This document shows positions 5,334 to 63,800 of a stretch of 64,000 nucleotides of DNA, one piece after another. Position 1 is the stretch's first letter. Each line of letters starts with the position of its first letter. The translations under genes and the position numbers were made by a program. Where the stretch lies: the NCBI GenBank assembly GCA_017306415.1, contig JAFKIL010000003.1:372001-436000 (forward strand), given 5' to 3'. The notes under the pieces were generated by a model. That model saw only the letters and a list, made by a program, of their open reading frames with translations, was not told where the DNA came from and searched no databases. The stretch comes from Microbacterium sp. GTDB taxonomy: Bacteria > Actinomycetota > Actinomycetes > Actinomycetales > Microbacteriaceae.

Positions 5334-6338
5334 GTGAACAAGCCCCGCCTCTACTCCGGAATGCAGCCGTCGGCCGACTCCCTCCAGATCGGCAACTACA
5401 TCGGAGCGCTCATGCAGTGGCGGGACCTGCAGGAGTCGTACGACGCGTTCTTCTCCGTCGTCGATCTGCACGCGCTCACCCAGCCGAACGATCCCGCCGA
5501 ACTGCGCGAGAAGACCCGCCGCACGGTCGCCCAGTACATCGCGGCGGGGATCGAGCCGTCGAAGTCGACGCTGTACGTCCAGTCGCACGTGCCGGCCCAC
5601 GCCGAGCTCGCGTGGATCCTCTCGACGATCACCGGGTTCGGCGAGGCCGGGCGGATGACCCAGTTCAAGGACAAGTCGCAGCGCTACGGCGCCGACGCGA
5701 CCTCGGTCGGACTCTTCACGTACCCGGTGCTGATGGCGGCCGACATCCTGCTCTACCAGACCGACATCGTGCCCGTCGGCGACGACCAGAAGCAGCACGT
5801 GGAGCTGACGCGCGACCTCGCCGAGCGGTTCAACTCGCGGTACGGTGCGACGTTCCGCGTGCCGACGCCGGTGATCCAGCAGGAGACGGCGCGCATCTAC
5901 GACCTCCAGAACCCGACCGCGAAGATGTCGAAGTCGGCGGAGTCGGATGCCGGGGTGCTGTGGCTGCTCGACGATCCCGGAGTCTCCGCGAAGAAGATCA
6001 TGCGCGCGGTGACCGACTCCGAGGGATCGGTGCGGTACGACCGCGAGCAGAAGCCCGGCGTGTCGAACCTCCTCGTGATCTACGCCGCGCTCACCGGCCG
6101 CCAGGTCGCGTCGATCGAGGACGAGTACGCGGGCCGCGGCTACGGCGACTTCAAGAAGGGTCTCGCCGAGGTCGTCGTGAACGAGTTCGGGCCGGTGCGC
6201 GAGCGCGCGCTCCAGCTGCTCTCGGATCCGGCCGAACTCGACCGCGTGCTCGCGATCAACGCCGGCAAAGCGCAGGACGTCGCGGACCGCACGCTGACCG
6301 ACGTGTACGACCGCGTCGGGCTGCTCCGCCGCCGGTAG
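5334..6338 (+). CDS. trpS: Tryptophan-tRNA ligase
   Basis: It charges tRNA-Trp in the cytoplasm. The class I signatures are clear: the N-terminal [19 protein letters not shown] holds the HIGH-type motif (here QIGN), and KMSKS lies at about residues 197-201. The conserved TQFKDKSQR and [31 protein letters not shown] stretches are also present. The length of 334 residues is normal. The GTG start fits both homology and the adjacent -10 hexamer. It is transcribed alone and away from ppsR. Two family-1 inverted-repeat elements lie behind its stop. Confidence 0.96.
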
Positions 6339-6379: not shown

Positions 6380-6479
6380 CGTACCGTTCTCAGGAGAAGC
6401 GGCATCCGGCCCGACCGCGAGCCGCACGGATTCGCGAGCCGGGGTCGGGTCGGACGTCGTCGATCCTGAGAACGGTACG
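6380..6479. repeat. Family-1 dispersed inverted-repeat element, copy 1
   Basis: CGTACCGTTCTCAGGA (6380-6395) and its exact complement TCCTGAGAACGGTACG (6464-6479) bound a 100-bp unit. The interior differs from other copies but holds a nested CCCGACC/GGTCGGG pair. It lies 41 bp after trpS in a convergent gap. Confidence 0.9.
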
Positions 6480-6574
6480 GCGGAGAACCCGCATAGACGC
6501 CGGTCAGGGAGTCGCGGGCGCTGGACTCGATCGGCTCTGGCGTCCTGCACGCGGTCCGGCGCCGCGTACCCACC

Positions 6575-6674
6575 CGTACCGTTCTCAGGACCCGCTGAGT
6601 TGGGGCAGCGGGAGATTCGCGAAGAAGCCGGCATCTCCCGCCGCACAGACGGCACCGATCCTGAGAACAGTACG
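6575..6674. repeat. Family-1 dispersed inverted-repeat element, copy 2
   Basis: A 100-bp unit with left arm CGTACCGTTCTCAGGA and right arm TCCTGAGAACAGTACG, one mismatch from the consensus. The interior has a nested GCGGGAGAT/ATCTCCCGC hairpin. With copy 1 it fills the 6339-6697 gap between trpS and the convergent DUF559 gene; I see no gene in that gap. Confidence 0.9.
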
Positions 6675-6697: not shown

Positions 6698-7531
6698 TCA
6701 GACGTGCTGACGCGATCGGATGAGACCCTGCAGCGCTCCGAGCACCTGCTCGGGTCGGTAGAGGATGTCCTCCGCGACGACGCGGAACGTCGGAAAGCCC
6801 CGTGCGGCAAGCGCGAGGTCGCGCGCGTGGTCCTTGCGCTGCGTAGCCCAATCGGAGTGGAATTCTCTGCTGTCGCACTCGACGACGAGCCAGCCGTCGA
6901 CGAGGAGGTCGACACGACCGATGCCCTCGAAGCGGACCTGCAGCTCCACCTGACAGCCCAGGGCGCGGGCTATGAGTCGAACCAGCGTCTCCGGACCGGA
7001 CTCTGCTCGCCCGTCGACGAGGCTCCTCACCGCGGAGAAGCGGTCGGGCAGCAATGCGAAGAGCTCGTCCAGTTCAGACAGACTGATGAGTCCGCGGTTC
7101 AGTGCGCTGTCGATCGTGGCGACCATCGCCCGCGGCGACTGGCATCGGAAGGCGTGCCGAAGGGCGTCGATGACGGGAACGACAGTCGCGCCGGCGGGAC
7201 TCTCATGACTGCTCCAATGGAGTCGCACCGGGTCTGACGACGCGCGTCGTCTCGGCGGCTGCTGCGGTCCCCGGAGACGGGCGGCCCGAGGGTCGACGTG
7301 GACATGCAGGAGCGCATTGTCGAGCACGAACACACCGAGCGCTGCCAAGAGCGAGAGGCAGGTGAGCCGGCCACCGACCCGAACGGCGCGAACGATGCGG
7401 TCGTCCACTCCCGTCGGCAGGTAGCGATCCCGCCTGACGTGGAGGAGTGCGCCGAGCCGCACGGCCCTTCGGATGGTACGTCGTGTGTAGCCGTCGGCGA
7501 AGAGTTCTGCTCGAGTGAGGAATTCGGTCAT
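6698..7531 (-). CDS. AbiEi-like N-terminus with DUF559 nuclease-like C-terminus
   Basis: The N-terminus (FLTRAELFADGYTRRTIRRAVRLG...RRDRYLP) looks like the winged-helix domain of type IV AbiEi-family antitoxins. The C-terminal 90 residues have a DUF559/Vsr-like PD-(D/E)XK layout: VDLLVDGWLVVECD, then HSDWATQRKDHARDLALAARG and a final helix. This two-domain type is common in actinobacteria, usually as an orphan without a toxin gene, and none is seen here. Its role is unknown; nuclease activity is possible. The start at ATG 7531 was chosen because the domain begins immediately after it; an in-frame TTG lies 30 bp upstream. Family-1 elements flank it on both sides. Confidence 0.75.
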   Translation of the reverse strand: MTEFLTRAELFADGYTRRTIRRAVRLGALLHVRRDRYLPTGVDDRIVRAVRVGGRLTCLSLLAALGVFVLDNALLHVHVDPRAARLRGPQQPPRRRASSDPVRLHWSSHESPAGATVVPVIDALRHAFRCQSPRAMVATIDSALNRGLISLSELDELFALLPDRFSAVRSLVDGRAESGPETLVRLIARALGCQVELQVRFEGIGRVDLLVDGWLVVECDSREFHSDWATQRKDHARDLALAARGFPTFRVVAEDILYRPEQVLGALQGLIRSRQHV

Positions 7532-7623: not shown

Positions 7624-7723
7624 CGTACCGTTCTCAGGATCAGCGAGCGCTCCGACAGCTGGGGGTGGCTGAGCCGCGCGGGTGGGACGTGTCGTCGTCC
7701 GTGCCGTTCCTGAGAACGGTACG
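7624..7723. repeat. Family-1 dispersed inverted-repeat element, copy 3
   Basis: Exactly 100 bp, bounded by CGTACCGTTCTCAGGA and TCCTGAGAACGGTACG. The interior carries small nested stems (TCAGC/GCTGA and GGACG/CGTCC). This is the only copy in a divergent gap, between the DUF559 gene and the GNAT gene. The remaining DNA of 7532-7894 is this element, about 90 bp without a visible signal, and the tandem repeat at 7813. Confidence 0.9.
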
Positions 7724-7812
7724 GCCTTGGGGCAGGGAGGACGGGGCGGAGGGTCCCGAGTGGAGGAAGTGCGGGGCGGATGGGCGGGCGGTCCAGCCTG
7801 CTGGCGGTGGCG

Positions 7813-7892
7813 GGTCGGTAGGGTCGCGGATCGGTAGGGAGGCGGGTCGGTAGGGTGGCGGATCGGTAGGGAGGCGGGTCGGTAGGGTGGCG
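7813..7892 (+). repeat. Five tandem 16-bp units ending in the GNAT gene promoter
   Basis: Two alternating variants, GGTCGGTAGGGTGGCG (first copy with one change) and GATCGGTAGGGAGGCG, follow each other without gaps for five units. Each odd unit contains TAGGGT, and the last TAGGGT (7882-7887) lies 6 nt before the GTG start at 7895. The array is therefore a repeated -10 region. Confidence 0.85.
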
Positions 7893-7894
7893 GG

Positions 7895-8461
7895 GTGGAA
7901 CCGGTGACCCTGCAGACCGAGCGGCTGGTGCTCTCGCCGCCCGACGAGGCGGACATCGACGCCATCACCGAGGCCGCCCAGGATCCCGAGGTCCCGCGCT
8001 GGACCACCCTCCCCTCGCCCTACACCCGCGCGCACGCCGAGGACTTCGTCGCCAAGGCCGCGACCTGGTGGGCACAGACGAGCGAGCTGACCTGGGGCGT
8101 CCGGCACGAAGACCGCTGGGTGGGCATGGTCGGCCTCCACCGCGTGGAGCCGCGCGGGGCCGCCGAGATCGGCTACTGGATGGCCCGCCCCGCGCGGGGG
8201 CGCGGGTTCCTCACCGAGGCGGCGCGGCGCGTCGTGGACTTCGGGTTCGCGGACGAGGGTCTCGGCCTCGCGCGCATCGAGTGGCGCGCGGTGGTGGGCA
8301 ACGTCCCCTCGGCGCGGGTCGCCCGACGCATCGGCTTCCGCTACGAAGGGCTCGTGCGGCAGGGCCTGAGCGACCCTCGCGGGCGGTCCGACGGGTGGAT
8401 CGCCGGTCTGCTCCGCGACGACGATCGCTCCCCGCAGCCGTGGCCCGTGCTCGACGACTGA
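7895..8461 (+). CDS. GNAT-family N-acetyltransferase (RimJ/RimL type)
   Basis: This is an acetyl-CoA dependent acetyltransferase of the RimJ/RimL/SpeG-like branch, substrate unknown. It has LQTERLVLSPPDEADIDAI at the start, the acetyl-CoA loop IGYWMARPARGRGFLTEAARRVVDFGF (motif A, near residues 92-118), and IEWRAVVGNVPSARVARRIGFRYEG with the motif B asparagine and C-terminal strand. The length of 188 residues is normal. The GTG start is set 6 nt behind a TAGGGT hexamer in the 16-bp tandem array, which suggests a leaderless mRNA. It stands alone, followed by the Fpg/Nei gene on the same strand. Confidence 0.88.
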   Translation: MEPVTLQTERLVLSPPDEADIDAITEAAQDPEVPRWTTLPSPYTRAHAEDFVAKAATWWAQTSELTWGVRHEDRWVGMVGLHRVEPRGAAEIGYWMARPARGRGFLTEAARRVVDFGFADEGLGLARIEWRAVVGNVPSARVARRIGFRYEGLVRQGLSDPRGRSDGWIAGLLRDDDRSPQPWPVLDD

Positions 8462-13827: not shown

Positions 13828-13839
13828 CGAGAGCATCAA

Positions 13840-13997
13840 CGTGCTCCGGGGTCGGTGAGAATCCGAACCGGCGGTGACAGTCCGCGAGCCAAGGCATCAG
13901 CATCCGATCGGGTGCCGCCGCGGCCGATCCGGTGGAATTCCGGGACCGACGGTGATGCGATGGGAGGCCATCGCTAGTCCGGAAGGGAGGCAGCACG
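13840..13997 (+). promoter_or_regulatory. FMN riboswitch (RFN element)
   Basis: The conserved aptamer blocks appear in order: a closing stem CGTGCT (13840-13845) pairing with AGCACG (13992-13997); GGGGTCGGTGAGAATCCGAA, then CCGGCGGTGACAGTCCGCGAGCC; further on GGTGGAATTCCGGGACCGACGGT; and finally TAGTCCGGAAGGGAGGCAGC. It stands before the four-function rib operon, so FMN binding should reduce riboflavin synthesis. The remaining 56 nt to the ribD start would hold the expression platform; the ribD ribosome site AGGAG lies there. I could not decide whether control is by attenuation or by ribosome access. Confidence 0.95.
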
Positions 13998-14053
13998 AAG
14001 GACGCCGCGCGCGTCCGCCGTCTGCCACGCCCGGAGCTGGACGAGGAGACCGG

Positions 14054-28174: not shown

Positions 28175-28273
28175 CGTACCGTTCTCAGGACCGCCCGAGC
28201 CCGCTCTACCCGTCCCGCGGCGTGTCGCGGCGTGTCGGCGCGTTCGGCCGCCGGCGAACCTGAGAACGGTACG
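28175..28273. repeat. Family-1 dispersed inverted-repeat element, copy 4
   Basis: Left arm CGTACCGTTCTCAGGA and right arm ACCTGAGAACGGTACG (one changed end base) bound 99 bp. It occupies almost the whole convergent gap between the first LigM gene (stop 28117) and the LysR gene (stop 28283). Confidence 0.9.
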
Positions 28274-45109: not shown

Positions 45110-45210
45110 CGTACCGTTCTCAGGAGTAACACCCGGGGTCTCAGCCGCCCGCCCGCGCCAATCCGCGGCCCCGCGGCCCGCGGGAGCGCGGCGTTCCTGA
45201 GAACGGTACG
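45110..45210. repeat. Family-1 dispersed inverted-repeat element, copy 5
   Basis: Bounded by perfect 16-bp arms, 101 bp long. Together with its flanks (45108-45233) it is repeated almost exactly at 45283-45408, a period of 175 bp. The gap 45037-45520 between the ABC transporter and pckG holds only these two copies and GC-rich filler. Confidence 0.9.
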
Positions 45211-45284: not shown

Positions 45285-45385
45285 CGTACCGTTCTCAGGA
45301 GTAACACCCGGGGTCTCGGCCGCCCGCCCGCGCGAATCCGCGGCCCCGCGGCGCGCGGGAGCGCGGCGTTCCTGAGAACGGTACG
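45285..45385. repeat. Family-1 dispersed inverted-repeat element, copy 6
   Basis: 101 bp with perfect arms. Its interior matches copy 5 except for a few substitutions, unlike any other pair in the window, so this pair arose by local duplication. Confidence 0.9.
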
Positions 45386-63699: not shown

Positions 63700-63800
63700 C
63701 GTACCGTTCTCAGGATGCGCGTGCCCCGCCCACTGTCGCCTCCGCGTGATTCCGCCGTTCACCCTGGGACCGGACGTCCGCAGATCCTGAGAACGGTACG
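63700..63800. repeat. Family-1 dispersed inverted-repeat element, copy 7
   Basis: 101 bp with perfect 16-bp arms, 17 bp behind the ECF42 stop. The interior is unrelated to other copies. Confidence 0.9.

Follow-up and report, generated by a model that had tools for sequence, protein, structure and literature searches.

Paired-arm elements dispersed through a Microbacterium genome: candidate cognate sites of an AbiEi-like, Vsr-like protein

The locus and its AbiEi-REase gene

The window, a 64,000-nucleotide stretch of Microbacterium DNA, holds seven paired-arm elements, two of which frame a gene for a candidate cognate protein (Table 1). All seven units of the original prediction were recovered at the coordinates given, and none of their 14 arms has more than one mismatch; the chance mean is 0.31 arms, and 0 of 100 shuffles reached 14. 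Its placing of six units behind gene 3′ ends also held, with 6/7 in convergent gaps and 7624–7723 between divergent genes. Gene context comes from a simple, purpose-written gene caller, and the names that we use (trpS for 5334–6338, GNAT, FHA and DNA methyltransferase) are our own assignments by eye. Short tandem GGATCGGTAGGG-like repeats lie at 7810–7900, between element 7624–7723 and the GNAT-like gene. At gathering threshold Rfam matches the window once only, at an FMN riboswitch aptamer on the + strand (13838–13999).

Table 1. Coordinates of the paired-arm elements and of the gene framed by two of them
Feature	Position	Strand	Remarks
Paired-arm element, arm family 1	6380–6479	.	100 bp; both arms perfect; convergent gap after gene 5334–6338
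Paired-arm element	6575–6674	.	100 bp; 23 bp past end of 6698–7531; frames AbiEi-REase gene on its 3′ side
AbiEi-REase gene, candidate cognate protein, 277 aa	6698–7531	-	Winged-helix and nuclease-like domains
Paired-arm element	7624–7723	.	100 bp; on the 5′ flank of the AbiEi-REase gene that it frames; 92 bp ahead of the assumed start codon
Paired-arm element	28175–28273	.	99 bp; convergent gap
Paired-arm element, tandem copy 1	45110–45210	.	101 bp; interior 0.95 similar to copy 2
Paired-arm element, tandem copy 2	45285–45385	.	101 bp
Paired-arm element	63700–63800	.	101 bp; convergent gap

The AbiEi-REase protein is modular, with an N-terminal AbiEi-like winged-helix module (approximately residues 5–160) and a C-terminal Vsr/PD-(D/E)XK-like domain of the REase_MTES_1575/DUF559 type (approximately 189–268). 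Against Pfam, the window protein itself matches PF18741 (REase_MTES_1575) at E 1e-7 and DUF559 at E 0.0018, neither match reaching its curated cut-off; PADLOC returns AbiEi over residues 5–160 (E 8.2e-5), and there is no AbiEi match in Pfam and none in NCBIfam. Among 29 homologues, MTES_1575 is matched in 29, DUF559 in 28 and AbiEi_4 in 14. Eight residues are invariant across these 29 (E181, D208, E218, C219, D220, H225, D234 and R237), of which we take E181, D208, E218, D220 and H225 to be catalytic. A profile search also matches PDB 3hrl, an ‘Endonuclease-Like Protein’ (E 0.00035, residues 208–272); a single-sequence structure model of the window protein has a mean pLDDT of 37.5, too low to interpret. 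By profile, and partly through its homologues, the product of 6698–7531 is both an AbiEi-family and a PD-(D/E)XK/Vsr-like protein, with cleavage as a predicted activity. No AbiEii toxin gene was recognised by eye beside it, the neighbours being trpS-like and GNAT-like.

AbiEi-DUF559-type homologues at E 1e-20 or better occur in 168 of 198 genomes of the genus. A phage or plasmid origin was considered and rejected: viral contigs contained 0 relaxed arm pairs, a search for viral relatives of the protein found none, and four distant plasmid records and one partial phage match came to light. Distant homologues on a Tsukamurella plasmid (L309) and an Actinomyces oris plasmid (L311), also of the AbiEi-DUF559 type, have upstream an apparent inverted pair with no counterpart downstream; these upstream pairs perhaps represent an ancestral operator state.

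Stepped spacing and the interior of the elements

Searching the window's own genome (G000; Microbacterium, 3.76 Mb, 13 contigs) for arm CGTACCGTTCTCAGGA at up to 2 mismatches, with no spacing term, returned 34 forward and 34 reverse matches, against 1 and 0 for a reversed-pattern control. The arms are non-palindromic on inspection. Of these 68 arms, 64 form 32 inward CGTACCGTTCTCAGGA pairs (50 arms perfect, 14 with one mismatch), a census that leaves out two candidate pairs whose partner arm has 5 mismatches. The four unpaired arms comprise three clustered on contig C8 and one alone on C7. That C8 cluster (L039, 3491–3933) also contains two complete elements; its three extra arms, of which two are forward and one is reverse, find no partner at the usual spacings.

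The 32 elements measure 100 bp (19 copies), 101 (3), 99 (2), 89 (5), 88 (2) or 110 (1), with arm starts 72–73, 83–85 or 94 bp apart and nothing between these classes. Element length is stepped by about a helical turn (88–89, 99–101 and 110 bp); the proposed constancy at 99–101 bp describes most copies but misses the shorter and longer classes. The outcome that the original prediction had named against itself, arm pairs at random spacing genome-wide, does not occur, all 32 pairs falling in discrete classes. Across all gathered loci, 118 of 125 inward pairs have arm starts 71–73 (23), 83–85 (93) or 94 (2) bp apart, while the remaining seven scatter, as do direct and outward controls; relaxed- and looser-pattern loci in this set were preselected by spacing limits, and the clean spacing test is the own genome. 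A further class at approximately 60–62 bp belongs to other arm families. Distribution along the chromosome is uneven, with 1 element on the 1.10-Mb contig C1 and 9 on the 0.80-Mb contig C4.

Interiors are unrelated outside tandem pairs, even among copies with perfect arms: similarity reaches 0.95 and 0.91 in two tandem pairs and 0.69 in a weaker one, the next value being 0.61 and the median 0.46. The interior is not wholly free, contrary to what had been supposed. Among the 19 elements of the 100-bp class, 16 have their best motif match, to a central palindrome resembling C.CG.AATT.CG.G, exactly at the dyad (leave-one-out), against 194 of 3,800 shuffled interiors with a best match within one base of it. 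In the 88/89-bp class the motif scan places the palindrome at no constant position. We had read the 89-bp elements as having one displaced centre; the motif scan disagreed, and that description was replaced by a rule of distance, 34 bp from the arm. At 33–35 bp from the arm inner edge, the A/T fraction rises to as much as 0.86 in the 84 class (n = 94) and to 0.48–0.65 in the 73 class (n = 24); the 62 class (n = 26) reaches only 0.35–0.40 over a mean of 0.25, and the two 94-class elements show the rise as well. Because the profile pools both strands, mirror peaks arise by construction, at 23–25 in the 73 class and at 12 in the 62 class. The step is clear in the 100- and 89-bp classes. We read this pattern as one putative inner contact per arm, both contacts coinciding in the commonest class.

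Could the elements be bidirectional terminators, or folded RNA 3′ ends? The window favours this, since 6/7 of its copies sit in convergent gaps and all seven fold better than their own shuffles, although largely by virtue of the arms. Over the 32 elements of the genome, however, 12 lie in convergent gaps, 7 between divergent genes, 2 inside open reading frames (FHA-like in L049, DNA methyltransferase-like in L045; names by eye) and 1 over a gene end, so that the suggested terminator or mRNA 3′-end function lacks support as a general role. Complementarity across the dyad in the 100-bp class is near the between-element level except for six arm-proximal bases (0.44 versus 0.38), with a slight excess at offsets 18–24 (0.39 versus 0.34) and small excesses in the 89-bp class too; interior halves that hardly pair beyond the arm-proximal bases, copies inside genes, A/T positions fixed by distance from the arms, and the lack of any Rfam match at the window elements at gathering threshold together make this reading scarcely credible.

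Other genomes: shared positions, framing and co-variation

Among GTDB contigs the exact arm pair has one carrier, M. yannicii PS01, whose coordinates and sequence recur in our genome G658; the exact 15-base core occurs in 1 of 299 family genomes, namely the own genome. A relaxed form of the arm pair, GTACCGNNNNCAGGA, occurs in 18 of 361 genomes of the genus, with 0 control matches, and a looser pattern restricted to the 99-bp class in 30 of 325, against 7 genomes for the reversed control, some of the 30 looking like chance. Arms vary by species around a form near GTTCACAACTCAGGA. The suspicion that no named family has this arm agrees with what we found: the family is real and unnamed, other species of the genus carry it with other arms, and the exact arm did not appear in print in the literature searched.

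Many elements occupy the same chromosomal place in different species. The locus at 5.3–8.5 kb of the window is shared by G000, G345, G346, G571, G475, G650 and G395, and a second element locus by eight genomes. Over 26 orthologous element pairs, hand-chosen from the list of shared loci, arms are 0.84 identical, interiors 0.67 (shuffled 0.64) and the outer 40 bp 0.71, and 21 of the 26 keep the exact element length. At the DNA methyltransferase site, G364 carries a good element whose arms differ, left and right together, from those of G000; in G508, which aligns with G000 without internal gaps, the arms are weak. The methyltransferase linker could be extracted from 11 of 30 loci, with an on-phase pair in 8 and an off-phase pair in 2, mostly weak. 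Comparison for empty sites at the FHA-like gene and the methyltransferase linker gave no clean empty site, linkers being too variable. G519 (L151) has a degenerate 88-bp element at the methyltransferase locus and no homologue at E 1e-20, a possible relic.

These observations bear on whether the elements are REPIN- or MITE-like mobile units, their inverted ends moved in trans by a transposase and their interiors since decayed. Inverted 16-bp ends, dispersal, tandem copies and the framing of a gene all recall RAYT/REP loci (REPIN definition in excerpts of PMC3116915). Against it stand interiors unrelated even between perfect-armed copies, the same positions in many species and left and right arms that change together at the methyltransferase linker. 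The check for a Y1 (RAYT-type) transposase in a carrier gave no match to PF01797 at E 0.001 in the own genome, whereas 5 of 14 control genomes match (the search covered Y1 only). We regard mobility of this kind as quite unlikely. The organisation had been compared to REPIN doublets, and of that comparison the paired inverted ends tied to the gene that they frame survive; membership of the RAYT/REPIN family does not, given the missing Y1 gene, non-palindromic arms and little pairing across the dyad. The idea that the ends alone are recognised is largely borne out, again through paired inverted ends tied to a framed gene.

Elements lie on both sides of the AbiEi-REase gene in 7 genomes whose loci were fetched for their elements. 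A fairer set consists of 30 genomes fetched by protein query and not by arm, which we analysed by a pair search with neither spacing nor arm prior and by an arm-weighted search with no spacing prior. By our reading of the search outputs, the gene is framed on both sides in 25 of the 30, on one side in four (L242, L245, L246 and L257), and unclear in one (L254). A four-arm score of at least 110 is reached by 19 of 50 genes (12 of them from the 30-genome set) against 2 of 183 mismatched flank pairs; a score of 96 is reached by at least 40 of the 183 mismatched controls, so single framings at 96–108 are not significant. Three of the 50 genes have no scorable pair, and of 20 further homologue loci 7 gave no clear result. 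In the arm-weighted search 26 of 60 flanks score, all at spacings of 60–61, 71–72 or 82–85, against 0 in the reversed control; among genes scoring at least 96, 57 of the 66 flanking pairs, once normalised on the arm core, lie at 60–62, 71–73 or 82–85. In G556 (L264, L152), the homologue stands beside a DNA methyltransferase-like gene with weak GTCAAA-type pairs on both sides, spaced 61 and 62 bp, which the four-arm score missed.

Framing arms and dispersed arms do not always agree. In M. yannicii PS01 (G658) the gene is framed by GTTCGCAATTCAGTC arms, yet CGTACCGTTCTCAGGA pairs are also present, and G329 has CGTACCG-type elements while its own gene is framed by other arms; the mismatched dispersed arms in these two genomes may be relics or sites of another gene copy.

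Divergence between arms follows that of the winged-helix region of the protein and not that of the nuclease region. In Mantel tests over 22 genomes, arm distance correlates with distance over residues 1–45 (r 0.32, p 0.0002; with TrpS taken into account, r 0.29, p 0.0004) and weakly with residues 91–175 (r 0.16, p 0.02; with TrpS, 0.11, p 0.09), and the REase region shows no correlation (r 0.06, p 0.24); the values are modest and drawn from genomes related to one another. Flank arms of the same genome agree at 13.9 of 16 positions (n = 19) compared with 9.2 between genomes (n = 342), although flanks were preselected for mutual similarity and are not independent.

The own genome has three matches to the protein, and GTCGGAAAAGCAGGCT pairs frame its second gene copy (contig C1, position 1053499; 53 percent identity). 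Were the protein to define the arm, this second arm would also be expected at dispersed sites, and it is found there: GTCGGAAAAGCAGGCT forms 13 inward pairs, two of them framing the second copy, of which 11 are spaced at exactly 60, one at 70 and one at 82. Single GTCGGAAAAGCAGGCT matches at 3 mismatches (18 and 20) are near the control (15 and 8), so only the pairing is distinctive. These pairs are extragenic in 12 of 12 cases with called surroundings, whereas the window is 91 percent coding by the same caller. G412 gives a similar picture: CGNNCCGTTCTCCGGA arms occur away from the gene in pairs 61–62 apart, and TGTGCCGTTCTCCGGA-type pairs with a spacing of 61 frame the gene itself. Element carriers number 23 among genomes with a homologue and none among the listed genomes without one (10 of the 30 no-match genomes are unlisted); in what is apparently the same 198-genome sample, fully listed, there is no other carrier. 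This overlap is weak support, since 168 of the 198 have a homologue anyway.

Noc, SlmA and MatP bind chromosome-organising sites, and the elements could be sites of this sort for an unrelated protein, their framing of the AbiEi-REase gene being coincidental. Shared positions, mostly extragenic dispersal and uneven distribution would suit such a role. Framing in 25 of 30 genomes by our reading, co-variation with the winged helix and not the REase region, and a second gene copy with an arm family of its own speak for a connection with the protein and leave this alternative very unlikely.

A putative protein–site system and its nearest counterparts

We propose that the AbiEi-like winged-helix/Vsr-like nuclease protein from gene 6698–7531 binds the elements as its dispersed cognate sites, a reading to which, from sequence comparison, we give a probability of about 0.78. 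The winged helix of one protomer would dock on each arm. Both arms would face the same side of the double helix, so that spacing could change only by about whole turns (about 62, 73, 84 and 94 bp between arm starts). Each protomer would make a second, weaker contact at the A/T step some 34 bp inside its own arm; with the intervening DNA bent or looped, the two nuclease domains could meet in the middle, where in the common 100-bp form both A/T contacts would coincide. Element 7624–7723 is a possible operator of the AbiEi-REase gene, and this upstream element probably autoregulates 6698–7531, as AbiEi does its own gene.

A related reading keeps the AbiEi-type repression and dispenses with nuclease action; the elements would then serve a global transcription regulator as operators. 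The AbiEi promoter has inverted repeats to which AbiEi itself binds, and AbiEi bends DNA (excerpts of PMC7319586); here one element stands 92 bp ahead of the gene, and 7 of 32 elements fall between divergent genes. The 12 of 32 in convergent gaps and the 2 inside open frames fit it poorly, neighbouring genes look functionally unrelated by eye, and the acidic residues of the nuclease-like domain are invariant; we consider it unlikely.

Under the preferred reading of cognate sites for a nuclease-bearing protein, a change in winged-helix specificity would be followed by the arms at their old positions, through selection or nick-seeded gene conversion. More tentatively, and at less than even odds, the AbiEi-REase protein may loop the elements and nick their A/T centre, with repair rewriting arms chromosome-wide: a transposase-independent, vertically inherited and co-evolving system of the winged helix and dozens of sites at fixed positions, with a separate site population for each gene copy within one cell, possibly of some benefit to the host. 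Were this doubtful step correct, the protein might be called a bacterial counterpart of a fast-evolving recombination-site protein, a label as speculative as the loop-nick-rewrite scheme that it names.

Several known systems share parts of this arrangement. The REase_MTES_1575 (Vsr-like) domain family was described from Microbacterium testaceum MTES_1575 (PMC3710099, seen in excerpt), and our protein has the same C-terminal domain family; the proteins in those excerpts are giant fusions with HEPN, transglutaminase and helicase domains, with no dispersed DNA sites described there. AbiEi antitoxins and their operators (type IV toxin–antitoxin systems) have in common with the present case the winged-helix module, inverted pairs beside the gene and, as excerpts of PMC7319586 report for AbiEi, bending of DNA. 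They differ in that here a nuclease-like domain is fused, sites occur genome-wide and no AbiEii toxin gene was recognised by eye; arm starts lie 60–94 bp apart, compared with AbiEi 23-bp repeats 3 or 13 bp apart in the same excerpts. Unlike MITEs, the interior is not conserved among copies (best non-tandem value 0.61, median 0.46). The portions of the literature searched on DUF559, AbiEi, REase and RAYT (including PMC3733652) contained nothing on these arms or on dispersed sites of AbiEi-DUF559 proteins, and neither the paired signals nor the protein partnership appears to have been described in them.

In organisation the elements resemble REPINs with their RAYT (TnpA-REP) genes, in which conserved 16-bp ends, inverted and paired, lie dispersed outside genes and accompany a gene that is single-copy, inherited vertically and flanked by the repeats (PMC3116915 and PMC8049555). 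Both systems have two inverted conserved ends at a set spacing, dispersed through the genome, and a cognate gene framed by the repeats. They diverge in the protein, here an AbiEi-like winged helix with a Vsr-like domain and not Y1, and in the DNA, where the arms are non-palindromic, the spacer forms no hairpin, spacing is stepped by the helical turn and positions are shared between species. We know of no dispersed repeat population in bacteria, linked to a domesticated single-copy enzyme, that is better described than REPIN/RAYT. If our reading is right, it would suggest a role for AbiEi-DUF559-type proteins, supply a measurable protein–site co-evolution and a rule of geometry that combines helical steps with an A/T step 34 bp inward of the arm, and add a second, independent REPIN/RAYT-like case built on a different enzyme.
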